IMG/VR virus record: IMGVR_UViG_3300010354_016665
Location: 1-32,179 of that record
Length of the DNA stretch: 32,179 bases
Strand: one strand, 5' to 3'
Source: a virus
The translations under genes were made by a program, and so were the position numbers. Each line of letters opens with the position of its first letter. Position 1 is the first letter of the stretch. Shown in pieces: positions 5,812 to 20,134 of this stretch. The notes beneath the pieces were generated by a model. It did no database searches. It was given only the letters and a program-made list of their open reading frames with translations, and was not told the DNA's origin.

Positions 5812-8800
5812 TGACAGCCTCCGACACCAGCCGCGTCCAGGCGTACAACGCCACCCGAGAGCGCCTCGACGCCAGGCGGACCGCCCGGGTGAAGTGCAAA
5901 CCACCCAATCGCCAGTGCGGTAACCGCTGCATCCCACCCAACTGGGACTGCCGCCTCAAGGGCGAAGGGGAAGATGGCCATCTGCGCGCTGTTGGCAAAG
6001 GCTCTGACCCTGTCTCAGGCCTGGCCAACATCGAGCGAGGGCTCGGACGTTTGCGCACCGCTGCGGTCAAGCTCAGCTTTTCCGAGCTTGAGGGTGGACG
6101 CAAAGCGATTGCGCGAGGTACTGCAAAGCTTTCACCGGGAGACCTGAAGAAGAAGGAAGAAGTCAAGAAAAATGTTGACTTTTTCTTAGGACGTGTACTT
6201 CTACCAGCAACAGCTGTAGTAGGTGCTACTCTAATGCACCGCGGACTTAAAAACTTCAAAGGTTATCGCGAAGGCGTAGGTCAACAAATTGACGATTCTG
6301 CACGCTCAGCCATTAACTTAGTTCGTACAAATATCCCTATTTACGGAGACCGTGTACGTCGCCGCCAACAAATCGGAGTCGAAGCTGTTGGTGCGATTAA
6401 CCGCTCCGTGGGCTCGATCGAGTCCAGAGGTGCCGCTTCCCTAGCCCGTGAACCAGGCACAAGACGTAGCCTGAGCGAAATGGTGCGCAGCCAGACCACC
6501 TCCAATGTGGAGGGGACTGCAGCTGATGTAGAAAGCCTACTTACAGATTCACTTCGTTCAGTAGATGGAGCTGTTAATAACCGCTCCAGGCCTAGTCGGC
6601 TGTCCTATGACGTATGGGAAAGCCGGTCTCTGACGACTTTCTGGAGTACCCCGAGAACGCCTCGTGTCTCTCCAGTCAGTATTGGCCAGAACGGCAGTGT
6701 CTTTTCGATTCACGCAACAAATGATCTTCTAGCTAAAAGCTTCGGCTTGCCAGCTCCCAACGGTGGGGACTTAAAGCAAGAAGGGGAGCTTGTTATTAGC
6801 CGCATGACTCAGCTATTCAAAGCTACAGGCGCCGGTATCAAAACAAGCATGCGTGAAGCAGGGCTTAATCCTAAAGACCCCGATGCTGTTAGGAACTATA
6901 TAGGCAAAGTCGGTGGCAGTAGCTTAGCTGACAATCAAGCTACGCGCATACTGGTAGACACTGTAACCCGTTCAGATTATGAAACTCAAGCCAAGAGTCT
7001 CTACAAGAAAACGGTCTCCAGTTACGACAGGCTTTTTCAGAGAGTAGCTGATGATTTACAGCAAGCTCCTTCAATCGACTTAGTAGTCAATCGTGGAAAT
7101 GAAAAAGAACAAGCACGCCTGCGGAAAATGCGGCAGAATACATTCTACAATGATGCCATCGAAGCACACAGTGTCTTTATCGGTCGTGCGATTGACCTAC
7201 CCGCCCCTGTATATGGCACCTACACAGGCACACTAGCAAAGCGCACCTACCATACTAGGTTTGTTGCTGGTTCCAAACGATTAGGCACCAATAACGACGT
7301 CAACATCACGTTGACACGCACCGAAGCCTTCAACGCCGGTGTAGAAATCGCCCGAGCCACGGGTGCTCCCGAGCCTGCAACCACTCAGGAAGCCCTGGAT
7401 CTGGTCGTTCGCACGTACGGGCGCGAACTCGGGCAGAACGTCCGAGGCAACGCCATCGGCAGCATCAGCCTGGTGCAGCAGGCCACACGTTCCCGAGGGC
7501 AGACCTCAACAGAGGCCACCTCCCAGGAGCGCCCGGCCCGGCGTCGTCAACGCAGCCGCGACGCCATCATTCGTGATCTGATCCGCGCCGGCTACTCCCC
7601 CGAGGGCGCCGCCACCGAGGCCGATCGGATCATTGCATCACGTCGCCGGGCTGACGCTTACCTCCTTGTTCGCGAGGACTTCACTCCCACCCGAGAACGC
7701 ACGGGGAAACCCTGTGGTAAGAGTTTCATCGGCAAGAACGAAAAGTGCAGTAAGCCCGGAGCCAAGGGCTACGTCGATCCAGCTCAAGGTCAGAACCCTA
7801 CAACAGACCTGCTCAACAATGCTGCCAAAGTCGCCACGATTGCTAGTGGCGTCGCTACCGTGGTAGGAGCTATTAAAAATAGAAAAAAGCTACGTGTAGC
7901 CGCCCGAAAGGGAGATATTAAACTAAGGAAAGCGCTGAAGAAAAACAATAGACAAGCTCACAAAGCTTATGTACGTGTACGTGTTCAACGGCGTGCTGTT
8001 GGAGCGGTAGTAAGACAGCGCACAGCTGAAGTAGTACCCGAACTCTCGAAAAGAGTAATCAAGCGCTTGTCAAGCCAAGAGGTAACAGATGGTATTAACA
8101 AGCTTCCTAAGCAGTATAGAGAGCGGGCCAGTCGTCTTGTAGGAGATGCTAAGCTCTCAGCCGCCCACATGGCTCTACGAGCTCGCGGGGCTGAGATAAC
8201 AGATGTGGATACTGTTAATAACTTTAGTAACTGGCGCACAAAAAACGGCGCTATTCTAAGCACGGGATCAGTAGGCGAGAGCTTAGTTATTTACAACACT
8301 ACTCCACAAGAATCATTAGGGGGTGCCCGCACTTATTCTACTCAATTCCGAATTGATGGAGAGTTTGACGCCAAGTCAACCGCGGCTGCTAGCAACGCTA
8401 AAGGTATAGCCTCTTTAGTTAAAAAGATGTTCAATAGCCAAGTAGAACAACTACCCGACAATTCAATTATTTATGCCATTCCTTACGCTAACGACAAAAA
8501 GGGAGGCAAGAGAAGCGCTATTTATAGGAGATACGGCTTTAGGCAAGCCCTTTCTTCTGATGAGCGTTTATTTGCCATGAAAACGAAAGGTAAGTTTACT
8601 AAAATGAAAGACAGCCATATCGATCAAATCGCAGACTTAATTCGTAATGATTCTACCAACTTAGATGACAGCACAACTACTACACACAGAACAACCCGCT
8701 TTGACTTTACACCTAAACAAGAAAGAACTGGTAAACCTTGCGGTAAGAGCTTTATTCCAAAAAATCAGAAATGTACTAAGGCTACAACTGCGCGCTACAC

Positions 8801-10385
8801 AGAACAACAAGAGACATCAAACTTAGCGAACGACAAGCTTAAAGTTGCAGCAGGAACTGCAGCTGTCGCGGGTGGTATCGCAGTTCTAGCTGCTATGGGT
8901 GTATCACGCTCTCGTGTTTCCGCTTATAGGAAAAATGTATCTAAGTCAGCGTTAGAAGCCGAAAAACTAGCTTTAGAGCTTGAAAGGAAGTTTAGAGAAG
9001 ATGCCGCAAAAAGATTAAAAAAGCGTCCTCAAGATGTAACTGGATTTGAAGCCTCAGTGTATAACTTTAAGGATAAAGGGCGAGATGGAGGTTTCGGGTC
9101 TATGGATAGTGACCCCGCATGGTTTGGTCAAACTAAGAGCTCCAAAGGCGCCGTTGTAATGTTATCCTATGCTGATGACAATAAATTTACAAACCGCGGA
9201 CAAGGTAGCTATATGATGGCTAAAGGCGGTGCTTTTCAGCAGATATGGGGCGATCGTGATATTATACCATATTCAAATAACATCTCTCAGCCTGTAGATA
9301 AAATACCAGATGATTTGCAAGTTAAGAAACGTGAGGCTTTCATAGACAAAGCTGAGAAACTAGGAGGCGCTACAGGTAAGAACGTCGCAAAAGCTGGAAT
9401 GACAATAAAAGACACATTTAAGCGCTTTAAGTTTCTAAGGGAAAATATAGAAAGAGGCTTTAACCCAGATGCTGTGCGTGCAGCTGCTTTTGTTGTAGCT
9501 CAGCGCCGCTTAACCGGAAAGTCTGTAGATATAATGAGCTACAGCAATGGAGGAAACGTAGCTACAGAGACCCTAGCTATCTTAAAAGAGATGGGCTACA
9601 GGGATGTTAAAGTTGTCAACGTAGCAGGGCCTACATTTGGTATGTTCTCCCATAGTGAAGATAATATGCGCACATGGGTTAGTGAAGGTGACGACTTCTA
9701 CAAGATTTCTAAAGGGCTTGCCTTCCAAGGTGGCAACACCCGCATACTCAAAAATCCAAACATTCCTCACGGACTCAGCGAGAAAATAGACCCCAATAAT
9801 AGGGAGTACGGAAAAGACTATAGAGCTAATGTGAAAGCCAAAAACAGTTACACATTAGACGAGCAACTTCAACGTGAAGCCTATAAGTTTTTAACTGTAG
9901 ACCGTAAACGCTCAGGTGAGCTTCTTGACGAGGTCATATTCTTTATCAGCGAGAAAAAGCCCATGAAGGGCGACCTAGCCAACCTCTTCGGCAACCAGAG
10001 CGGGGTAAAAATAGCTGAGTTTACTAAGCGTATGAATAACACCCGAGACCGCGAAGCTACAAAGTCTCAAATACGTGATGAGATAGAAGATCTCATGTTA
10101 GAGCGCTGGTACGGTGGCTACAACCCTAAGAACGTCAAAAACGCTCAGAGAAAGATACGCTCCGAGTTAGAGCAACAAATCAACCCCGCTCCCCGCACCA
10201 CACAGCGACGCCCTCAAAGTGCTAACCAAATAGCTACTGACTTGATGAAGCAGAACCCCGGTATGAGTCGCGCAGCTGCCCTCAAGGAAGCGCGCCGTCG
10301 CATGTTGGAGAGCAAGACTGATTCTGCCATCTACCTTGACGCTTACAACCTCACCCGAGCGCGGCTTCTCACCGCATGCGCCTAG
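5811..10385 (+). CDS. Giant modular cargo protein with Cys motifs, GNAT-like and lipase-like domains
   Basis: 1524 residues from ATG 5811, which overlaps the portal stop (TGATG); a GTG five codons earlier is less likely. Three modules each begin with the C-G-x-x-x-I-x5-C motif: C36-C47 (with extra C29 and C40), C635-C646 and C977-C988. A hydrophobic segment follows each (about 121-145, 665-690 and 1010-1035). Module 1 cargo is unrecognised. Module 2 ends in a GNAT-like fold with I-Y-R-R-Y-G-F at 904-910. Module 3 has a nucleophile-elbow-like S-Y-S-N-G-G (1243-1248) with Ser1245, then E-G-D-D (Asp1294/1295) and P-H-G-L (His1320), in the order of a lipase-type triad. A-Y-N-x-T-R-x-R-L occurs at both ends (11-19 and 1511-1519). 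Head-gene context suggests a virion or head-assembly role; enzyme calls are by motif only. Confidence 0.8.
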   Translation: MTASDTSRVQAYNATRERLDARRTARVKCKPPNRQCGNRCIPPNWDCRLKGEGEDGHLRAVGKGSDPVSGLANIERGLGRLRTAAVKLSFSELEGGRKAIARGTAKLSPGDLKKKEEVKKNVDFFLGRVLLPATAVVGATLMHRGLKNFKGYREGVGQQIDDSARSAINLVRTNIPIYGDRVRRRQQIGVEAVGAINRSVGSIESRGAASLAREPGTRRSLSEMVRSQTTSNVEGTAADVESLLTDSLRSVDGAVNNRSRPSRLSYDVWESRSLTTFWSTPRTPRVSPVSIGQNGSVFSIHATNDLLAKSFGLPAPNGGDLKQEGELVISRMTQLFKATGAGIKTSMREAGLNPKDPDAVRNYIGKVGGSSLADNQATRILVDTVTRSDYETQAKSLYKKTVSSYDRLFQRVADDLQQAPSIDLVVNRGNEKEQARLRKMRQNTFYNDAIEAHSVFIGRAIDLPAPVYGTYTGTLAKRTYHTRFVAGSKRLGTNNDVNITLTRTEAFNAGVEIARATGAPEPATTQEALDLVVRTYGRELGQNVRGNAIGSISLVQQATRSRGQTSTEATSQERPARRRQRSRDAIIRDLIRAGYSPEGAATEADRIIASRRRADAYLLVREDFTPTRERTGKPCGKSFIGKNEKCSKPGAKGYVDPAQGQNPTTDLLNNAAKVATIASGVATVVGAIKNRKKLRVAARKGDIKLRKALKKNNRQAHKAYVRVRVQRRAVGAVVRQRTAEVVPELSKRVIKRLSSQEVTDGINKLPKQYRERASRLVGDAKLSAAHMALRARGAEITDVDTVNNFSNWRTKNGAILSTGSVGESLVIYNTTPQESLGGARTYSTQFRIDGEFDAKSTAAASNAKGIASLVKKMFNSQVEQLPDNSIIYAIPYANDKKGGKRSAIYRRYGFRQALSSDERLFAMKTKGKFTKMKDSHIDQIADLIRNDSTNLDDSTTTTHRTTRFDFTPKQERTGKPCGKSFIPKNQKCTKATTARYTEQQETSNLANDKLKVAAGTAAVAGGIAVLAAMGVSRSRVSAYRKNVSKSALEAEKLALELERKFREDAAKRLKKRPQDVTGFEASVYNFKDKGRDGGFGSMDSDPAWFGQTKSSKGAVVMLSYADDNKFTNRGQGSYMMAKGGAFQQIWGDRDIIPYSNNISQPVDKIPDDLQVKKREAFIDKAEKLGGATGKNVAKAGMTIKDTFKRFKFLRENIERGFNPDAVRAAAFVVAQRRLTGKSVDIMSYSNGGNVATETLAILKEMGYRDVKVVNVAGPTFGMFSHSEDNMRTWVSEGDDFYKISKGLAFQGGNTRILKNPNIPHGLSEKIDPNNREYGKDYRANVKAKNSYTLDEQLQREAYKFLTVDRKRSGELLDEVIFFISEKKPMKGDLANLFGNQSGVKIAEFTKRMNNTRDREATKSQIRDEIEDLMLERWYGGYNPKNVKNAQRKIRSELEQQINPAPRTTQRRPQSANQIATDLMKQNPGMSRAAALKEARRRMLESKTDSAIYLDAYNLTRARLLTACA
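7678..7751 (+). repeat. Module-boundary motif, copy in GC-rich codons
   Basis: Encodes D-F-T-P-T-R-E-R-T-G-K-P-C-G-K-S-F-I then K-N-E-K-C-S-K. The same peptide pattern recurs at 8704-8777 with different synonymous codons, marking the start of modules 2 and 3 in the giant protein. Confidence 0.85.
8704..8777 (+). repeat. Module-boundary motif, copy in AT-rich codons
   Basis: Encodes D-F-T-P-K-Q-E-R-T-G-K-P-C-G-K-S-F-I then K-N-Q-K-C-T-K. It is nearly the same peptide as at 7678-7751, but written with A/T-ending codons, so the two copies differ much more in DNA than in protein. Confidence 0.85.
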
Positions 10386-11251
10386 TCGAGCGCTACAACC
10401 AGATCCTCCGCACCACCGAGGACGCTACCATTCAGCGCCTGGACGCCGTCCTCGACGCCAGCTTCAACCGCCTGTTGCGCCGCGTCCGCGTCCACATGCG
10501 CGCCGGCTACAGCGACCCAGCCCAGCGCAACCTGGCCATCCTCCAACTGCTGCGCCGGCTCATCCCGAGCACGGTCCGCCCTGAAGCTCTTGACGCCTAC
10601 GACCGTGCGCTGCGCACCCTGGTCACTGAAGCCCAAAGGCTGGGCCTCCTCTCCGCGGCCGGCACCACCGAGGATGCCATGCCCACCAGGCCCCGGGTGG
10701 ATGTGACGATCCCCCTCGACGCCACGCTCGCTGCACTCCAGCAGGCCAAGACCTTCCTGTGGAAACACGGACAGACCTTTGCCGAAACCACAGCAACGCT
10801 CATCGCCCAGGGCATCACCGAAGGCCGGCCCACCGCTGCCATGGTCACCGACGCCCGCCAACGCCTGGATGTCGTCAAAAGCCGCGCGGAAACGATCGTG
10901 CGTACCGAAAGCCTGCGTGCTTACAACACCGCCAGCGACCGTTACTACAGCGCTCAAGGCATCGACACCGTTCTCTATTACGCCACGGCGGACGACCGCT
11001 CCTGCACAATCTGCGCCCCCCGCGCCGGCCGTATCTACCGCAGGGGGACAGTTACTACACCACTACATCCTAATTGCCGCTGCTACTTAGCTCCTTGGAG
11101 TCAGAACATCGCAGAACTTGATCCCGACTACGCTGAAATGCCCCAGCGCCACCGCAAAGAAGTCGCCGCTACATCACGATTCCCTGACGCCTCCATCCTG
11201 AACAAACGCGGCGTGTTTGAGCAGATCACACCAACACCGCTCAGCGTATAA
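10376..11251 (+). CDS. Mu F-like head morphogenesis protein
   Basis: 291 residues. This family (Phage_Mu_F, SPP1 gp7-like) is a minor head protein usually encoded right after the portal; it binds portal and enters or lines the head. The family signature is the C-terminal metal-binding-like segment: T-A-D-D-R-S-C-T-I-C-A-P-R-A-G, then P-L-H-P-N-C-R-C-Y (about 202-237). The preceding R-T-E-S-L-R-A-Y-N is also typical. The N-terminal half is helical and basic. The start overlaps the end of the giant cargo gene by 10 bases. No ADP-ribosyltransferase or other toxin domain is attached, unlike some MuF proteins. Here it is split from the portal gene by a 4.6-kb cargo gene, which is unusual. Confidence 0.9.
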   Translation: MRLVERYNQILRTTEDATIQRLDAVLDASFNRLLRRVRVHMRAGYSDPAQRNLAILQLLRRLIPSTVRPEALDAYDRALRTLVTEAQRLGLLSAAGTTEDAMPTRPRVDVTIPLDATLAALQQAKTFLWKHGQTFAETTATLIAQGITEGRPTAAMVTDARQRLDVVKSRAETIVRTESLRAYNTASDRYYSAQGIDTVLYYATADDRSCTICAPRAGRIYRRGTVTTPLHPNCRCYLAPWSQNIAELDPDYAEMPQRHRKEVAATSRFPDASILNKRGVFEQITPTPLSV

Positions 11252-11289: not shown

Positions 11290-11306
11290 GAGACCGTGCC
11301 GGTCTC
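11290..11306 (+). promoter_or_regulatory. Hairpin before the second cargo gene
   Basis: GAGACCG-TGC-CGGTCTC is a perfect 7-bp stem with a 3-base loop, 10 bases before ATG 11317. It is followed by a pyrimidine stretch without a T-run. It also covers the GTG at 11296, making that codon an unlikely start. It may modulate read-through or translation. Confidence 0.5.
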
Positions 11307-11316
11307 CTCTCTTCCG

Positions 11317-12144
11317 ATGCGCACCCCAACCAAAAAGCGCCCTCCTTTGGAAATGGAGCCCGGCGAAGGCAAGGCCCACGAGATGAAGGAGACCCCGGAA
11401 GAGGAAGTCCGTGAGGGCACCGAATCAGAAGAAGGCGAGGAATACCCCAAGAAGAGCCGCAAGCGCTCCGCCAAAGGTGCCAAGAGCACCAAGGCCCCCA
11501 TGGACGCCGAGTGCGGCTGCGGCGCCAAGGGGCGCAAGGGCAAGTGCGACGGCAGCTGCGGCAAAGCCATGAAGGACGGTGGCAACTACCCCATGAAGGG
11601 CCGCAGCGACGCCCTCACCGCCCCCGAATACCTGGCCGCCTGCGACCTCGGCATCCAGGGCCGCAGTCGCTCCTACATCCGAGCACGATTGGACGCTGCA
11701 GAACGCCTGGACCTGAAGTGTGGCAAAGGTGCAATTTCAAAGGGTGAAAAATGCCGGAAGGGTCCAGCAACGAAAGCCCAGGGCCCCAATGTAGGTGTTC
11801 AGATTGGTCAAGCTGCTAAGGGCGTAGGCCTAGGTGTACTTGAAGCCGGCAAGTGGGTCTCTGGCTACAACATTGGAAAAACAATCGCCACACGTGTAAC
11901 TGGCGGTAAAAATGAAAAAGCCTCTGGCGGAGCAAAAGCTGCAGCCGTCCTTGGATCTACTTTATTGCTAGCTGGAGCTGGCGGCCTTGGTGCAGCCCGT
12001 CGCGTTGGAGCTTTCGGTTCCACAGATCTTCAGCAACACGAGAAAAACCAAAAGAAAGAAAAGAAGTGGCGCCGTAGCGTCGGCTATAAAGATAGTGTCT
12101 ATGCCCCCGGCTTCTCCGTAGACTACGACCAACTGGCCCTCTGA
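11317..12144 (+). CDS. Cys-tag cargo protein with acidic/basic head region
   Basis: 275 residues from ATG 11317, chosen over GTG 11296, which lies in a hairpin. Residues 1-60 are charged and disordered-looking, first acidic (E-E-E-V-R-E-G-T-E-S-E-E-G-E-E) and then Lys/Arg-rich. A cysteine cluster follows (C66, C68, C77, C81). Residues 135-146 are the island's signature motif, C-G-K-G-A-I-S-K-G-E-K-C. Two Gly/Ala-rich hydrophobic stretches lie at about 165-186 and 208-230. The protein ends with the shared tag K-D-S-V-Y-A-P-G-F-S-V-D-Y-D. No enzyme domain is visible. The stop is two bases before the next ATG (TGACCATG). Most likely a structural or membrane-active member of the same family; function unknown. 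Confidence 0.75.
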   Translation: MRTPTKKRPPLEMEPGEGKAHEMKETPEEEVREGTESEEGEEYPKKSRKRSAKGAKSTKAPMDAECGCGAKGRKGKCDGSCGKAMKDGGNYPMKGRSDALTAPEYLAACDLGIQGRSRSYIRARLDAAERLDLKCGKGAISKGEKCRKGPATKAQGPNVGVQIGQAAKGVGLGVLEAGKWVSGYNIGKTIATRVTGGKNEKASGGAKAAAVLGSTLLLAGAGGLGAARRVGAFGSTDLQQHEKNQKKEKKWRRSVGYKDSVYAPGFSVDYDQLAL

Positions 12145-12146
12145 CC

Positions 12147-12222
12147 ATGCTTACCCCCAGCACTCTTCGCCTCGACCTCAAGTGTGGCAAAGGCGCAATT
12201 TCCAAAGGTGAGAAATGCACTA
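12147..12222 (+). repeat. Front-tag DNA repeat, copy 1
   Basis: The first 76 bases of this gene match the starts of the genes at 12710 and 13585 closely. CACTCTTCGCCTCGACCTCA starts at 12161 here, at 12724 in copy 2 and at 13602 in copy 3, identical in all three. Confidence 0.9.
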
Positions 12223-12707
12223 AAGGCGCAACCCAAGCTGTAGAAAAACACGCAAAGAGTAACAGAGCTCCCGGATTGCGTGCTGGGCAGGTCTATCGCG
12301 GTATGACCTGGGGTGAGCAGTTTAATTACCTGGCACGTACGAAGGCTCCAGGCAGGAAAGGTGTATTAAATGCGCGTGAACCAGTAGAAGGTTTTATTCG
12401 ACAAAACAGTAAAGCTTACGCTGGATGGGGAGCCACTGGAGGTGCTGTAGCAGGGACAGCTCTTGGGGGTTTAGGTATCGGAACCGCGGTGGGAGCAGGG
12501 ATTGGTGCAGGCGCTGGTGCAGTCGCAGGAGCGGGTCTTGGAGTGTTGGAAGCCGCAAGCGCAACCACATTTGGCTACAAATATGCAACACCTGACCGTA
12601 TTAAATCACGCAAAAAAGGAAAGACTTACTATCAATCTGGAGTTATACAACGCGACTCTATCTACGCCAAAGGTTTCAAAGTCGATCTCGCTCAGCTCTC
12701 CCTCTGA
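12147..12707 (+). CDS. Cys-tag protein with glycine-zipper membrane segment
   Basis: 186 residues. The front tag R-L-D-L-K-C-G-K-G-A-I-S-K-G-E-K-C is at residues 8-24 (C13-C24). A basic middle follows, then a long Gly/Ala segment at about 93-135 with many G-x3-G spacings (A-G-T-A-L-G-G-L-G-I-G-T-A-V-G-A-G-I-G), the look of a glycine-zipper transmembrane hairpin. The end is the shared tag R-D-S-I-Y-A-K-G-F-K-V-D. Glycine zippers drive tight helix packing in membranes and occur in pore-forming and ejection proteins; whether this one forms a pore is inference. The gene is two bases from each neighbour's coding region (TGACCATG at both junctions), so it belongs to one transcript with them. Confidence 0.8.
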   Translation: MLTPSTLRLDLKCGKGAISKGEKCTKGATQAVEKHAKSNRAPGLRAGQVYRGMTWGEQFNYLARTKAPGRKGVLNAREPVEGFIRQNSKAYAGWGATGGAVAGTALGGLGIGTAVGAGIGAGAGAVAGAGLGVLEAASATTFGYKYATPDRIKSRKKGKTYYQSGVIQRDSIYAKGFKVDLAQLSL

Positions 12708-12709
12708 CC

Positions 12710-12785
12710 ATGCTTTCCCCCGGCACTCTTCGCCTCGACCTCAAGTGCGGCAAAGGCTCCATCTCTCCCGGTGAGAAATGCACTA
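12710..12785 (+). repeat. Front-tag DNA repeat, copy 2
   Basis: Near-identical to 12147-12222 and the start of 13585. Preceded by the same TGACCATG junction as copy 1. Confidence 0.9.
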
Positions 12786-13588
12786 AAGGGCTTGCTACGA
12801 AAAAAACTAGCAACAAGAAGATTAAACAAGCTACATTTGCAGAAAAGGGGCTGGTAACTCTTGGAACAGCAGCTGCTGTAGGCGGATTAGTCTTAGCACG
12901 CAGCAAAAGAAACAACCCTAAATCGATTCAACGAGAAAGGGGGGCAAATGCTGTAGCCATCGCAGGCGGTGGACTCGGCTTAATTGGAGTAGGTCTCGGT
13001 ATTTACGGTGAACGAACAAAGAATCAGGGAGCACGCGACCTCGGGGCAGGCATAGCTCTTGCCGGTGGAATGTTTGCTTCGGCCGGCCGCGGTAGTGCTA
13101 AGGCCGAACAAGCACATAGACGCAGGATGCAAGAGTTTGAAAATATGAACTTTGAATCTCCAAATTGGACACCGCCAAATAGTGAAGGCTTTAATTCTCG
13201 CTACAGTAGAAGCTCCAACAGGCAGACTAGCACCGGAACAGACCCGAATCAGTGGTCACGCGAACAACAAAACGCCTACAAAAAACGACGCTGGCAAGAA
13301 TGGGCTAATGCTCAGCGCAGTTCAAACACTAATCAGTCTACTAGAGGCTCTAATAAAGCCGTACCCAACCCTTATCAGAGCTTAGGTATTCCCGAAACAG
13401 CTTCAGACAGAGACATAAAGAAAAAGTGGCTGGAGTTAATGCGTGCTAATCATCCTGATACTGGTGGCGACCCCGAGCGCGCAAAGATCTACAACGCCGC
13501 CTACCAAGAGATCCTTCGTCGCCGAGGCCGGCGCGACTCCATCTGGGCCAAAGGCTTTGAGGTTGACTGGGAAGCTATAGCACTATGA
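12710..13588 (+). CDS. Cys-tag protein with C-terminal DnaJ J-domain
   Basis: 292 residues. The front tag has C13-C24 (C-G-K-G-S-I-S-P-G-E-K-C). Hydrophobic Gly/Ala stretches lie near 46-63, 79-99 and 108-123. A Ser/Asn/Gln/Arg-rich linker follows. Residues about 220-270 are a J-domain, with N-P-Y-Q-S-L-G-I, K-K-K-W-L-E-L-M-R-A-N-H-P-D-T-G-G and the diagnostic His-Pro-Asp at 248-250. J-domains stimulate the ATPase of DnaK/Hsp70; here it would sit on the far side of membrane segments, so recruitment of host DnaK to a membrane or to the capsid is plausible inference. It ends in the shared tag R-D-S-I-W-A-K-G-F-E-V-D. It overlaps the next gene by four bases (ATGA). Confidence 0.88.
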   Translation: MLSPGTLRLDLKCGKGSISPGEKCTKGLATKKTSNKKIKQATFAEKGLVTLGTAAAVGGLVLARSKRNNPKSIQRERGANAVAIAGGGLGLIGVGLGIYGERTKNQGARDLGAGIALAGGMFASAGRGSAKAEQAHRRRMQEFENMNFESPNWTPPNSEGFNSRYSRSSNRQTSTGTDPNQWSREQQNAYKKRRWQEWANAQRSSNTNQSTRGSNKAVPNPYQSLGIPETASDRDIKKKWLELMRANHPDTGGDPERAKIYNAAYQEILRRRGRRDSIWAKGFEVDWEAIAL

Positions 13589-13662
13589 GTATTAACCCCA
13601 GCACTCTTCGCCTCGACCTCAAGTGCGGCAAGGGCGCCATCTCCCCTGGTGAGAAGTGCCAT
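13585..13662 (+). repeat. Front-tag DNA repeat, copy 3
   Basis: Start of the kinase gene, matching copies at 12147 and 12710. A more diverged copy inside the same gene (14470-14530) encodes S-R-L-D-L-K-C-G-K-G-S-I-S-P-G-E-K-C, and another at 11706-11760 encodes the motif in the gene at 11317. Confidence 0.9.
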
Positions 13663-16600
13663 AAAGGTTCAGCAACAAAGCCGAGCTCTGGGATTTTGCT
13701 TCCCGCTGGTATAGGCGTATTAGCCGTTACAGGAGGAGCGTTATCGCGCAGAAAATGGGCCCCTTCGGCTGAGAGAGCACTAAAAGAATTAGGTGCAGTC
13801 GTACCGTTACCACATACAGCACCCATACCACCCAAAGACTCTAAGTTTCTAGCGAAAGGTTATGCAGGTGCAATCTATACCGCAAAAGACAGAAAAACTG
13901 TGTTTAAGATTAACTTTAAGCGTACAGTAAGTGGGCGCAAAGCTTTTATGAAAGAATCCGCTATTCAGGCTAGGCTCCACGATAAAGGCGTTAATACACC
14001 TAACGTAGTAGCTTTTGACGGCAAACGCTCAATAGCGCAAATTGAATTCCTAGATGGTTACACAACTATGCACAGCTTGCTCGATTCCAAGACTAAGCAG
14101 AGCACGCGCACCGAGTACGCTGTAACATTCATTAAAGAGATGAAAAAGCTACATGAAGCTGGTTATACACATAATGATATGCACCTGGGAAACACAATGA
14201 TAAGAGAAGGAGACGTAAAGCTCATAGACTGGGGATACGCTAAGCCTATAAAGGATATGCCTAAATGGGGGTTGCGAAACGATCTTAAGCACGTAAGTGA
14301 TATGCTTAAAGATCTAGACCCTGAGCTCCAAAAGCGTTTTGCCCCAGCGGCCAAAGCTTTCGTAGATCAAAACCCAAGAGCTACCGCAGAAGACTACTCA
14401 AGATTCTGGGACCAATTTATAAAAGAATCTGGACGTAAAGATGCCGATGAGTATATGCACGGTAATATAAGCCGCCTCGACCTAAAGTGCGGCAAAGGCT
14501 CTATCTCCCCAGGTGAAAAGTGCCACAAGGGCGCAGCAACGAAAGTGGCCGCCATCGCGGCAGGTGCCCTGGTCGCATCTGGCATTACCGCTGCAGCAGT
14601 CAATCGACGCCCACCCAAAATCCGGCATCTGAAGGTCACGCCCCCGAGCGCGAGCTCCGCGAGCCCGAAACCCTCTGCACCCAGCGGTCCTCCCCGCCTC
14701 CCCGGCTCCACCCCCTATGGCCTGCTCCCCCCTGCCCGCCGGCCCAAATCCAAAACCCAGCGCATGCGGGAGAACACCGCCGCCTCCGTGCGCAACGCTG
14801 AAGCCGCCATCGGCCGCACAGCCCAAGCCGAGGTGACCCGCATCGCCCAGATCGGCAACACCATGGCCGCCACCGGCGAAGCCACCGGCATGGCCTTCAA
14901 GACCACCCTCCGAGAGCTCCGCTTGCGCACCGAGGCCGCCCGCCGCCGCTACGAACCGGGCTACCGCTCTATGCGCCGACAAGCGCAGCGCCCACCGGCC
15001 CAGCTCCCCGAGGGCGGCACCACCGAGTTCCAGGTTCCCTTAAACCCGCCGCAGTCTCTGACCCCCGAGCGCATCCGCACCCAGCGTGACCTTCGCACCG
15101 GCCAACCGCGGCGGCGCAAACCCCAGGGCTTTGGCCGTAGTGACGCTGCTGCGCATCCGCTCTACGGCACCACCTACATCGACCCCGCCCGTCCTCGGGG
15201 GGACGCCGAAGGCGACGGCAAGAAGTACACGAAGACCGTCACCAACCCCGAGACCGGCCGCAAGAACAAAGTCCGCTACGGCGCCAAGGGCTACAAGATC
15301 GCCCCCGGGACCGACAAGGGGGACCGCTACTGCGCCCGCTCCTTCGGCGACATGAAGTCCCACAACAAGAACTGCGCGGGCAAGGACCGCAACACTCCCC
15401 TCTGCCTCTCGAGAGCGAAGTGGAAGTGCTCGGGCAAGACCAGCCGCCGTGACGAGGGCCTGACGCCGGGAAAGCCCTGTGGTGCTTCTCACATCCCCAA
15501 AAGCCATAAGTGCAGTAAAGGTACGGGTCTTCCCACTAGCAACAACTCCCAGACTGCAGCTAAAGTTGCACTAAGCGCAGGCTTACTAGCAGGAGGACTC
15601 GTTCTGGCTAAGAAATTCCGGGGGCCATTCAAACCCCCAGTTACACGCGATGAATTGCGTGCTCAGGGTGCCGCCGCTGCGGCCAAACCCAAAATCTCCC
15701 CCGAGAACAACGACCGCATCATTCGCGAAGCCCTCGAGGCCAACAACAAAGCCGACTGGCAAGAAGACATCAACACCCGACGCCAAGCTGAAATCAACGC
15801 TGCCTGTCGGGGAGACAGCCTGGGAAAGACGCTCCCCCCACTGAAGCTTGACGCCTGGATCAATCCAACTCGGTGTCGTGCTTTCGGTGGGGGAGGTCAA
15901 TTCGGTTCCTATTTCATTCACCCCAGTCAAAAATACGGGGTTAAAACAGTCACTGATCCTGACAATGATTGGGTAGCGGATCGAGAATGGGAAATGCTCC
16001 AACAAGTTCGTGGACTTGGTGTAGGTGCCCCAGAACCGCTCGCCTTCAGAGGCAACAACGTAATAACAATGGAGCACATGAAAGGCTACCAGTCCGTAGC
16101 CAAACAATTTACGACTTACGGCAATGCCCCACTCAAGCTGAGACTTGACGTTATCCGCAATCTTAGCAAGCTTAACGTCGAAGGCATAGCCCACGGCGAC
16201 GCGCACGAAGGTAATGTCCTCTGGAACCCAAAGACACGCAAGACCGCTTTTATTGATTTCGGCTTTGCCACTACTATTGATGAATGGTCTGGCAGTACAC
16301 CGCACGGTCGCTCTGGAGTCGAGAATCTGACATGGGATATGGAAAGAGCTTCTGAGCGAATGATAAAAAGCGATCCCGGTCCTTACTTTTACGAATCAAG
16401 ATACAGACTCCAAAAGTTTCAACAGAAGTGGGACGAACCTCTTGCTTTCATCAGTAGCGCTGCAGAAGCCTACGCCGACGGGCGTGAACCCGAGCTGTGG
16501 CGCAGCGCCCAACGCACAATCAAGCGCTATTACATCGACCTCTCCCGTGAAGTCGTACGAACTGAGGGCTACCGCCCCCGAGTGCGCTCCCGCCTGGTAA

Positions 16601-16902
16601 GGGCCGACGGCCCCTCCACCGAGTACTACCGCACCCACCCCGAGGCCGCTGCCAAGAAGGTCCGCCACCAGGCCGAAATCAACCGCCGGCCCGAGGAACG
16701 CAAGCGCCGCGCCGCCCTGAACAAGGAGCGCCGCAGGCGCGGCATCGACGGCAAAGGCGGCCCAGACGTCTCCCACACCGTGGCCGGGAAAACCGTCCTC
16801 GAAGACCCCTCCACCAACCGGGCCCGCAATGGCCACGGCTCACGCCCTCGGTTGAAGCAGGACTCTGTATGGGCTGAGGGCTTCCACCCATTCAATCCAT
16901 AA
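13585..16902 (+). CDS. Cys-tag protein with two protein-kinase-like domains
   Basis: 1105 residues with three signature motifs (C14-C25, C302-C313, C632-C643). Kinase-like domain 1 (about 85-280) has a Gly loop K-G-Y-A-G-A-I-Y, Lys108 in V-F-K-I-N-F, H-N-D-M-H-L-G-N (catalytic Asp198) and I-D-W-G (Asp215). Kinase-like domain 2 (about 765-950) has F-G-G-G-G-Q-F-G-S, Lys787, H-G-D-A-H-E-G-N (Asp872) and I-D-F-G (Asp891). Both resemble the compact RIO/APH-like branch rather than eukaryotic Ser/Thr kinases, and both look catalytically complete. Between them are a Pro/Arg-rich low-complexity stretch (about 345-530) and a basic Cys-bearing domain (about 530-625). It ends D-S-V-W-A-E-G-F. The second tag is preceded by M-H-G-N-I-S, suggesting two former genes fused. 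Substrate unknown. Confidence 0.85.
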   Translation: MSINPSTLRLDLKCGKGAISPGEKCHKGSATKPSSGILLPAGIGVLAVTGGALSRRKWAPSAERALKELGAVVPLPHTAPIPPKDSKFLAKGYAGAIYTAKDRKTVFKINFKRTVSGRKAFMKESAIQARLHDKGVNTPNVVAFDGKRSIAQIEFLDGYTTMHSLLDSKTKQSTRTEYAVTFIKEMKKLHEAGYTHNDMHLGNTMIREGDVKLIDWGYAKPIKDMPKWGLRNDLKHVSDMLKDLDPELQKRFAPAAKAFVDQNPRATAEDYSRFWDQFIKESGRKDADEYMHGNISRLDLKCGKGSISPGEKCHKGAATKVAAIAAGALVASGITAAAVNRRPPKIRHLKVTPPSASSASPKPSAPSGPPRLPGSTPYGLLPPARRPKSKTQRMRENTAASVRNAEAAIGRTAQAEVTRIAQIGNTMAATGEATGMAFKTTLRELRLRTEAARRRYEPGYRSMRRQAQRPPAQLPEGGTTEFQVPLNPPQSLTPERIRTQRDLRTGQPRRRKPQGFGRSDAAAHPLYGTTYIDPARPRGDAEGDGKKYTKTVTNPETGRKNKVRYGAKGYKIAPGTDKGDRYCARSFGDMKSHNKNCAGKDRNTPLCLSRAKWKCSGKTSRRDEGLTPGKPCGASHIPKSHKCSKGTGLPTSNNSQTAAKVALSAGLLAGGLVLAKKFRGPFKPPVTRDELRAQGAAAAAKPKISPENNDRIIREALEANNKADWQEDINTRRQAEINAACRGDSLGKTLPPLKLDAWINPTRCRAFGGGGQFGSYFIHPSQKYGVKTVTDPDNDWVADREWEMLQQVRGLGVGAPEPLAFRGNNVITMEHMKGYQSVAKQFTTYGNAPLKLRLDVIRNLSKLNVEGIAHGDAHEGNVLWNPKTRKTAFIDFGFATTIDEWSGSTPHGRSGVENLTWDMERASERMIKSDPGPYFYESRYRLQKFQQKWDEPLAFISSAAEAYADGREPELWRSAQRTIKRYYIDLSREVVRTEGYRPRVRSRLVRADGPSTEYYRTHPEAAAKKVRHQAEINRRPEERKRRAALNKERRRRGIDGKGGPDVSHTVAGKTVLEDPSTNRARNGHGSRPRLKQDSVWAEGFHPFNP

Positions 16903-17303: not shown

Positions 17304-18572
17304 ATGGAAACATCGGTTTCTCGCTTCGATTTCGCGCCGATCATCGGCAGCGAAAAGACCGACGAGGGTTACCTCCGGGTCTGGTGCCGGGCTGCCCGAA
17401 CGGGCACCCAGCTCTATCGACGCGCCGATGGTTCTCAAGTTCGGGAGTATCGCCCCCCTGAGGAGGTGCAAAAGCCCGAATCCCTCGCCACGTTCGGCAT
17501 GAAGCCGGTCACGTGGACCCACCCCCCGGTCCTTCTCGATTCCAGCAACACCGCGCAGTTCTCCAAGGGCACCTCCGGTTCCCAGGTGAGATTCAACGAT
17601 GGTTTCGTCGAGGTCGCCCTGGTCATCACCGACCAGGACACCATCGAGAAGATCGAGCGCAAGGACGCCACCGAGGTCAGCGCGGGTTACCGCGTCGACT
17701 TCGACCCGACCCCAGGGATCACCCCCGAGGGCGAGTCCTACGAGGGCGTCCAGCGCAACATCCGGGTGAACCACATTGCGATCGTCCCCCGCGGCCGGGC
17801 TGGCCCGGAGGTCCGCCTGTTGCTCGATCGCATGGATGCGGCAGATGCCGTAGCCCTCCCCGAGGCCGCAAACCTCGACCAGCCCATCTCCCCCGCACGC
17901 AAACCCATGGCATCCATCAAGTTGGACGGCCTGGAGATCGATCTGCCCGCAGAAGCCGCTGGCGCGGTCCAGTCCTATGTCCGGGACACGGCACGCCAGC
18001 TCGATGCTGCCAACACCGAACTCGGTGAACTGCGGCAAAAGCTCGACTCTCTCCAAGCCGACTACGACGCCCTCGCTGAAGAGAAAGAGGCCGCCGAAGG
18101 CCGAGCCGACGCCCTCGAGGAGGCCCTCTCAGAGGCCGAATCCACCGGCGAAAGCCGCATCGACACCACCGAGCTCGACCGCCTGGTCGCCGCCCGCCTC
18201 GCCACCCTCCAGCAGCTCGCCCCGGCCTTCACCGAGGACTTCAAGTTCGACGGCATCGACGACGACGAGCTCTACGTCCAGGCCTTCCAGAACCTGACCG
18301 GCAACACCCCCCGGGAAGATGCCGCCCCCGAGTACGTCCGCGGCGTGGTCGACGGCATCCTCGCCGCCCGGGCCGACGCTGACCCTGACGACGACGAGGA
18401 GGAATCCCCCGAGGACGAAGGCGAAGACGACACCGATCGCGCTGACAGCACCGAGTCGCTGCGCACCGCCCTCCGCGGCGCCGGCAGCTCGTCCACGACC
18501 AAGGATTCGGTAGCCGCCTACCGCTCCCAGGTCAAGGAGAACTGGAAGCGTCCCCTCACCGCCACCAAGTAA
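17304..18572 (+). CDS. Prohead protease/scaffold fusion (DUF2213 type)
   Basis: 422 residues. Residues 1-175 fit DUF2213: R-F-D-F near the start, T-D-E-G-Y-L-R-V, P-E-E-V, S-L-A-T-F, P-V-T-W-T-H-P-P (69-76), V-S-A-G-Y (125-129) and N-H-I-A-I-V-P-R-G-R-A-G (156-167). I infer a prohead-protease role, with His157 and Ser126 as candidate active residues; the mechanism is not certain. Residues about 195-270 form a coiled coil, and 355-375 is a very acidic run (D-P-D-D-D-E-E-E), both typical of an internal scaffold. It is followed at once by cement and capsid genes, the normal order. It could process the tagged cargo proteins upstream, but nothing here proves that. Confidence 0.83.
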   Translation: METSVSRFDFAPIIGSEKTDEGYLRVWCRAARTGTQLYRRADGSQVREYRPPEEVQKPESLATFGMKPVTWTHPPVLLDSSNTAQFSKGTSGSQVRFNDGFVEVALVITDQDTIEKIERKDATEVSAGYRVDFDPTPGITPEGESYEGVQRNIRVNHIAIVPRGRAGPEVRLLLDRMDAADAVALPEAANLDQPISPARKPMASIKLDGLEIDLPAEAAGAVQSYVRDTARQLDAANTELGELRQKLDSLQADYDALAEEKEAAEGRADALEEALSEAESTGESRIDTTELDRLVAARLATLQQLAPAFTEDFKFDGIDDDELYVQAFQNLTGNTPREDAAPEYVRGVVDGILAARADADPDDDEEESPEDEGEDDTDRADSTESLRTALRGAGSSSTTKDSVAAYRSQVKENWKRPLTATK

Positions 18573-19222: not shown

Positions 19223-20134
19223 ATGACCACTGAAATTCGCAACGACGAGGTCGGCGTCTTTCTCGCCCGCGAACTCGAGACGATCCTGTCTCGTACCTTC
19301 GAGGTCGAATACGCCGACATCAAGTACAGCCAGCTGATCCCGATCTCCACCGAGGTCGGTCCTGGCTCCGACTCCTTCACCTACCGAGTCTTCGACAAGC
19401 AGGGCTCGATGAAGGTGATCGCCGACAAGGCGAACGATCTGCCGCGCGCTGACGTTCTCCGCAAGGAGATCAGCCACCCGGTACGGAGCCTCGGTGCCTC
19501 CTTCGCGTACACCATCCAGGAAACCCGCGCCGCTGCCATGGTGCAGGGCATGAACCTGGAGCAGCGCCGTGCCAACGCCGTGCGCCGCGCCTACGAGGAG
19601 AAGGTGCAGGAGATCGCCTTCTTCGGCGACCCCGCCTCCGGCATGAAGGGTTTCTTCAACAACGATCAGGTCGACAAGACCGTGCCGAACAAGTGGTTCG
19701 ACACCGCCACGACCGACGAAATGCTGGAGCTCCTGAACGAGGCACCAACCCGCCTCGTGCAGAACTCCAACATGAAGGAGATGCCCAACACCATGTTGGT
19801 GCCCTACTCGGTGTACCGCACGATCTCCACCACCCCGAGGTCGTCGGTTTCGGACACCACGGTGATGGAGTTCTTCCTGCGCACCAACCCGATGATCACC
19901 GCGATCGAGCCCATCAACGAGCTCGAAGCGGCCAAGTCTGGAGGCACCCTCTCCAAGGACCGGATCGTGGTGTACGACCGCAGCCCCGACAAGCTGCAAC
20001 TTCACCTTCCCCAACCCCTGGAGTTTCTGCCCCCGGTGCGTCAGGCCCTCGAGTTCACCGTCGCAGCCCATGCCCGCATCGGCGGTCTCGCGCTCTACTA
20101 CCCCAAGAGCGTGATGGTTCTTGAAAAGGCTTGA
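19223..20134 (+). CDS. Major capsid protein (DUF2184 type, HK97 fold)
   Basis: 303 residues from ATG 19223 with GGAG about ten bases upstream; the frame opens earlier (19175), but that part overlaps the cement gene end and looks non-coding. Features fit the DUF2184 capsid family: L-A-R-E-L-E-T-I-L-S-R-T-F-E-V-E-Y, then L-I-P-I-S-T-E-V-G-P-G, T-Y-R-V-F-D-K-Q-G, the R-R-A-x5-Y-E-E-K-V-Q-E-I-A-F-F-G-D spine helix region, G-F-F-N-N, and A-H-A-R-I-G-G-L near the end. This is the shell subunit and should be the most abundant virion protein. The gene set of protease, cement and this capsid type is consistent. No N-terminal delta domain is seen, fitting a separate scaffold. Confidence 0.87.
   Translation: MTTEIRNDEVGVFLARELETILSRTFEVEYADIKYSQLIPISTEVGPGSDSFTYRVFDKQGSMKVIADKANDLPRADVLRKEISHPVRSLGASFAYTIQETRAAAMVQGMNLEQRRANAVRRAYEEKVQEIAFFGDPASGMKGFFNNDQVDKTVPNKWFDTATTDEMLELLNEAPTRLVQNSNMKEMPNTMLVPYSVYRTISTTPRSSVSDTTVMEFFLRTNPMITAIEPINELEAAKSGGTLSKDRIVVYDRSPDKLQLHLPQPLEFLPPVRQALEFTVAAHARIGGLALYYPKSVMVLEKA

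Follow-up and report, generated by a model that had tools for sequence, protein, structure and literature searches.

An in-frame double-kinase protein among viral head genes and its relation to a candidate system of end-tagged, exchangeable enzymes

A single open reading frame among the head genes of a metagenomic virus (a 32-kb IMG/VR record, the 32,179 nucleotides of which are referred to here as the window) contains two complete kinase-like domains, and is best read as two fused kinase modules, which are usually encoded by separate genes. On sequence grounds, the kinases belong to a modular, swappable set of end-tagged enzymes, together with ADP-ribosyltransferases and J-proteins, and in related viruses kinase 2 appears to be joined to the module upstream by a programmed -1 ribosomal frameshift. 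We favor, with a probability of roughly 0.6, the interpretation that the tagged proteins are effectors docked in the prohead and ejected with the DNA, with a dose that is limited by frameshifting in the relatives; packaging, ejection, frameshifting, catalysis and substrates are matters that we infer rather than demonstrate.

The head-gene surroundings of the two-kinase ORF include TerL, portal, MuF, DUF2213 prohead protease and capsid protein genes, and the ORF itself is organized in the order tag 1, hydrophobic segment, kinase 1, tag 2, hydrophobic segment, linker, middle Cys-rich domain, tag 3, hydrophobic segment, kinase 2, phrog_6437 domain and C-terminal tag (Table 1). An earlier sequence-only reading of this DNA had described two complete kinase-like domains in one protein of the structural cluster, with separate Cys tags and hydrophobic segments ahead of them, and this description is borne out by the residues, Pfam and AlphaFold; to it we add tag 2 and its hydrophobic stretch, between the kinases, as well as two broader points: the kinases are modules, brought together by fusion, of a tag system that spans several proteins, and relatives usually attach kinase 2 through a putative frameshift. 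The 19-residue hydropathy maxima after the three tags are 1.73, 2.07 and 1.66, respectively. The middle domain is found in the head clusters of most relatives and shares 67-73% identity (79-89 aa aligned) with hypothetical proteins encoded by S-TIM cyanophages and by Roseobacter phage CRP-212, and the phrog_6437 domain forms its own ORF in some relatives (e.g. locus L139).

Table 1. Features of the portal–protease interval and the capsid gene in the window, with the modules of the two-kinase ORF.
Feature	Position	Strand	Remarks
Portal, left border of cargo interval	3976..5811	+	PF06381, E 5.6e-56
1529-aa multi-module protein in the portal–MuF slot, with two GKPCGKSFIxKNxKC-type tags	5796..10385	+	
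MuF-like minor head protein, not fused to effector	10376..11251	+	PF04233, E 8.6e-12
Tagged protein T1, C tag DSVYAPGFSVDYDQLAL	11296..12144	+	Same position in most relatives
Tagged cargo, Gly/Ala-rich hydrophobic middle, C tag DSIYAKGFKVDLAQLSL	12147..12707	+	
Tagged J-domain cargo, N tag and C tag DSIWAKGFEVDWEAIAL	12710..13588	+	DnaJ E 1.8e-7
Two-kinase ORF	13585..16902	+	1105 aa, one open frame
N-terminal Cys tag 1 RLDLKCGKGAISPGEKCHKG (aa 9-28)	13609..13668	+	
Hydrophobic segment 1 (aa 35-53)	13687..13743	+	Mean hydropathy 1.73
Kinase domain 1 (K-B family; H196-N-D198, D215-W-G217)	13840..14439	+	
Cys tag 2 RLDLKCGKGSISPGEKCHKG (aa 297-316), then hydrophobic segment (aa 321-339)	14473..14532	+	
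Middle Cys-rich domain (aa 543-622)	15211..15450	+	
G_GGA_AAG slippery heptamer, in phase, at kinase-2 junction	15468..15474	+	
Cys tag 3 GKPCGASHIPKSHKCSKG (aa 629-646), then hydrophobic segment (aa 657-675)	15469..15522	+	
Kinase domain 2 (K-A family; GxGxxG, K787, H870-G-D872, D891-F-G893)	15862..16464	+	
phrog_6437 domain (aa 1010-1087)	16612..16845	+	E 4.3e-22
C-terminal tag DSVWAEGFHPFNP of two-kinase ORF	16861..16899	+	
DUF2213 prohead maturation protease, right border of cargo interval	17304..18572	+	phrog_530, E 1.3e-81
Major capsid protein	19223..20134	+	Synteny with S-CBS4 major head protein

Kinase 1 contains the residues G92/G95, K108, E124, H196-N-D198, N203 and D215-W-G217, and kinase 2 contains G769-x-G771-x-x-G774, K787, E801, H870-G-D872, N877 and D891-F-G893. 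The two aspartates previously singled out as catalytic, Asp198 and Asp872, are correctly placed, and the Gly loop, Lys, HxDxxxxN and DxG attributed to both domains are all present, although kinase 1 has a reduced Gly loop, GxxG and not GxGxxG. Pfam matches of the whole ORF are to RIO1 (5.6e-19), APH (2.3e-13), Pkinase (1.1e-11), ABC1 (1.2e-11) and Kdo (1e-10); each kinase domain alone exceeds the Pfam RIO1 cut-off, and the APH and Kdo profiles also match the separate domains. Other profile searches point to the Bud32/RIO side, all under membership cut-offs; for Bud32, the KEOPS kinase, TIGR03724 gave 72 bits (two stretches summed) against a cut-off of 125. Comparison with the PADLOC defence kinases yielded nothing past general kinase similarity.

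AlphaFold models built with alignments of relatives (A1, 10 rows; A2, 15 rows) could have contradicted the kinase assignment by lacking the fold, and both have it, in its two-lobed form, with mean pLDDT of 84.1 for kinase 1 and 77.4 for kinase 2. The top VIA-align match is RIO1 in each case (Z 16.8, 3.1 A over 183 residues for kinase 1; Z 16.0, 3.3 A over 162 residues for kinase 2), followed by Bud32/PRPK, and kinase 2 also matches the RNA kinase Ark1 (Z 14.7); the top Foldseek rows are PRPK for kinase 1 and ordinary eukaryotic kinases for kinase 2. Both domains are closest to RIO1/Bud32-type kinases by Pfam, AlphaFold and structural alignment, with a common fold and common active-site motifs, but they have only ~15-22% identity to the aligned chains, fall below the NCBIfam cut-offs, and are viral, tagged and located in head genes. 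From the models and the residues, both have a predicted kinase fold and are probably active. Their substrates could nonetheless be RNA or small molecules instead of proteins, as with Ark1-like or APH-like enzymes, and this would be compatible with head delivery; the Ark1 alignment and the APH and Kdo profile matches are consistent with it, whereas the top matches are to RIO1 and Bud32/PRPK, and even though fold similarity does not settle substrate we regard this alternative as rather unlikely.

No match was found by tblastn to either kinase family in 50,697 phage records or to the 35-residue tag in phage records, and scanning viral contigs with the whole 1105-aa protein revealed no relative; relatives were reached instead through the capsid protein, a search with which recovered 244 related viral contigs with identity up to 92%, and through the tag pattern. 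Kinase domains are present in ~45-46 ORFs among these loci and form three groups, two of which, K-A and K-B, resemble kinase 2 and kinase 1, respectively. The K, E, HxD, N and DxG positions are invariant in both the K-A and K-B alignments, and every complete relative domain displayed retains the catalytic residues, including the Asp whose regular loss in homologues the sequence-only reading had named as evidence against it. That reading had also called for a phylogeny of each domain, and in a tree of 32 domains kinases 1 and 2 fall in different clades, each with support of 100/100, the window domains being on long branches. An intragenic duplication of one kinase is rejected because the families are separate and each groups with modules of other viruses, with the caveat of the long branches. 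A kinase-2 profile match is present in just 8 of the 13 large relatives, and kinase 2 is therefore evidently dispensable. We note that at one locus (L102, 2062-5498, minus strand) two adjoining kinase ORFs of different families are linked by a GGGAAAG overlap and not by fusion.

The tags extend well beyond the kinases. The N-terminal Cys tag, in its typical form M.LTP.TLRLDLKCGKGxISxGEKCxKG, has a core (RLDLKCGKGxISxGEKC) that is common to many head-cluster proteins, and it is often accompanied by a C-terminal tag, DS[IV][YW]AxGF; about 200 distinct tagged ORFs are present in the related contigs, with both tags on 91 and one only on some. Within the window the N-tag copies differ at 4-11 codons synonymously versus 1-3 not, of 20 codons, and since the differences are mostly synonymous it is the peptide that is conserved. 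Tag matches in all frames of both strands are confined to the portal–protease interval, both in the window and in the 70.7-kb relative G009 (9/9 matches), and a hydrophobic stretch lies behind the tag in 39% of cases, versus 9% of control windows, at a cut-off of 1.4. These hydrophobic stretches could also mean that Cys tag and hydrophobic segment together form a membrane anchor, not a head signal, on enzymes that act late to time lysis, exclude superinfection or defend against rival phages, and kinase 1 is weakly like PD-T4-6/Stk2-type defence kinases; the confinement of the tags to the portal–protease interval and the C-terminal tags common to several proteins make such an anchor quite improbable.

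The cargo of the tags is diverse, as Pfam searches of 75 representative tagged proteins identified kinase families (~9), DnaJ (7), ADP-ribosyltransferase (2) and lipase/hydrolase (1) domains, and the portal–MuF slot of relatives is often occupied by LRAT/NlpC domains and sometimes by a K-B kinase. One might suppose that the tagged enzymes serve head assembly inside the producing cell, for instance by phosphorylating core or scaffold proteins, with no delivery to the next host. Their genes are among late head genes, and kinases and J-domain proteins could aid assembly, but a hypervariable, swappable cargo in which ADP-ribosyltransferases and a lipase occur does not look like a set of assembly factors, and the kinase is absent from several relatives; we consider an assembly role unlikely. 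In the window, the modules of the 1529-aa ORF in the portal–MuF slot have no Pfam match; by eye, AIYRRYGFR forms a GNAT-like stretch and SYSNGG a motif like that of alpha/beta-hydrolases. In the K-A ORFs of L139, L148, L201, L164 and L158, a short W[KE]D end replaces the usual C-terminal tag and is possibly a second C-terminal signal.

In most K-A-bearing relatives the upstream ORF ends with ...RRD.(A)LTPGK.. and the K-A ORF is in the -1 frame, in which the match begins at GKVxGLxRxDAPxGxxGKPCG; as for a programmed -1 frameshift, there is an in-phase X_XXY_YYZ heptamer in the overlap and the -1 frame is open. G_GGA_AAG has been reported to be highly shift-prone in E. coli (PMC5009743), and GGGAAAG is present in 24 of 24 distinct GKV...GKPCG junctions across several upstream modules, although these junctions are related by descent and the counts are thus not independent. 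A set of 69 loci built on the middle domain comprises 17 with out-of-frame cargo, 4 that look vestigial, 2 in-frame fusions (L139 and the window) and 46 without the heptamer there. All 17 out-of-frame cargos have the in-phase heptamer behind the middle domain, against a background of 0.024% per codon, and the 46 loci without it variously have a stop, an in-frame fusion, a following ORF that has an ATG of its own, or a heptamer further downstream, the last as found on checking L089, L097 and L105. Seven -1 ORFs have no ATG, GTG or TTG ahead of the tag. The cargo behind the heptamer is kinase 2, an ADP-ribosyltransferase or a GNAT-like domain, and the exchange is illustrated by L114 and L169, which agree fully over 114 nt upstream and 103 nt downstream of the joint and then differ, the former continuing into a kinase and the latter into an ADP-ribosyltransferase. 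Downstream of the heptamer there are small hairpins, and neither a pseudoknot nor a stem there reached significance as a stimulatory RNA structure (z -1.7 to +1.35). The frameshift-linked cargo of L041 (6924-7571, plus strand) is GNAT-like by eye (AIYERWGFR), with no Pfam acetyltransferase match.

The frames are set in register in L139 by one extra G, and in the window a short deletion at the junction has the same effect: the heptamer is kept, the -1 frame after it closes after 13 codons, and the kinase-2 module is in frame, such that kinase 2 would be present on every copy. The source is a metagenomic virus record, and the difference between L139 and the frameshift form is one inserted base, both of which might suggest that the two-kinase ORF is an artefact of assembly or sequencing; however, the window junction is short of ~16 residues that are present in relatives, not of one base, and further in-frame fusions exist (L148, L199), so that an artefact is very improbable. 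More tentatively, with odds a little short of even, we suggest that these elements constitute a virion-cargo system, in which a two-ended tag loads exchangeable enzymes and a conserved joint (RRD..LTP-G_GGA_AAG, then GKVxGLxRxDAPxGxxGKPCG) swaps the last effector, a kinase, ADP-ribosyltransferase or GNAT-like domain, at a fixed low dose, the window representing a joint that collapsed into a permanent double-kinase fusion.

In the delivery mechanism that we propose, the tags would dock diverse enzymes in the prohead ahead of DNA packaging, in the manner of the capsid-targeting sequences of T4 or the cargo peptides of encapsulins, and the cargo would exit the head together with the DNA. The Gly/Ala-rich hydrophobic segment behind the N-terminal tag may help the cargo to pass the host membrane or to anchor there, and the RIO/Bud32-like kinases would phosphorylate host proteins, or possibly RNA, ahead of phage transcription; in relatives the second kinase, ADP-ribosyltransferase or GNAT-like domain would be a minor -1 extension made at the heptamer, leading to a low copy number of cargo. 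Delivery of head-gene kinases with the DNA had been proposed in the sequence-only reading against a background of T7 0.7-like early kinases. The location of the tags, the common terminal peptides and the injected-effector type of the enzymes point toward delivery; a T7 gp0.7-like identity is ruled out, as phrog_15752 reaches only E 0.71 in a PHROG profile search.

A precedent is provided by T4, with its capsid-targeting sequences and ejected Alt (PMC9026906). As with T4 Alt and the internal head proteins, short terminal peptides are common to otherwise different head-cluster proteins, the genes are in a head-gene context with a prohead protease nearby, and ADP-ribosyltransferases are among the cargo; the differences are an unrelated two-cysteine tag with a hydrophobic segment, kinase and J-domain cargo, and modules linked by a putative frameshift. 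In T4-type internal head proteins the peptide directs packaging and is cleaved off by the prohead protease; for the present tags both steps are putative. Polyvalent proteins, multidomain head-gene proteins with a presumed role immediately after entry (Iyer et al. 2017, PMC5512222), also contain kinase, ADP-ribosyltransferase and GNAT domains, and the cargo repertoire described here resembles the one suggested for proteins that enter along with phage DNA (PMC5512222; T4 Alt). In polyvalent-protein kinases, however, the C-terminal subdomain has been lost and an insert separates His from Asp (PMC5512222), whereas HND and HGD are contiguous in the window and both models have C-lobe helices; frameshifts have 0 occurrences in that paper. 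Unlike MuF polymorphic toxins, the window MuF is a separate 291-aa ORF with no effector fused. The joint resembles lambda G/GT-type -1 frameshifting in its in-phase heptamer, its upstream domain with a -1 module, and its place in late phage genes, but joins swappable head-cluster enzymes instead of tail-assembly chaperones. Each of these principles (targeted internal proteins, polyvalent effectors and -1 frameshifting) is already known; in a limited literature search we found no description of the tag pair, the cargo range or the frameshift joint. If our interpretation is correct, viruses that probably have abundant picocyanobacteria as hosts load a programmable enzyme set in each head, including protein-kinase-like enzymes that are rarely considered virion cargo, and a -1 frameshift that links swappable effectors to a common carrier widens programmed frameshifting past tail-assembly chaperones and hints at a means of fixing effector dose. 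The tags may also offer a bioinformatic handle on unknown injected effectors and a short, testable head-loading signal.

Judged by portal and protease, the isolated phages most closely related to the window are cyanophages (S-CBS4, 36-39%), and the sigma factor of a 70.7-kb relative (L211, 4310-5170, minus strand) is closest to the cyanobacterial RpoD/SigA family (TIGR02997, E 2.7e-68, which is below cut-off); for both reasons the hosts are likely, although not proven, to be picocyanobacteria. A scan of genome contigs found just two short MAG contigs (Microbacteriaceae, an actinobacterium), which are probably mis-binned. In the nearest isolate, S-CBS4, the tag patterns used matched nothing, and the corresponding interval contains glycosyltransferase and methyltransferase genes. 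Finally, upstream of the terminase genes in the window, an ORF at 968-1552 appears by eye to be dCTP deaminase/dUTPase-like.
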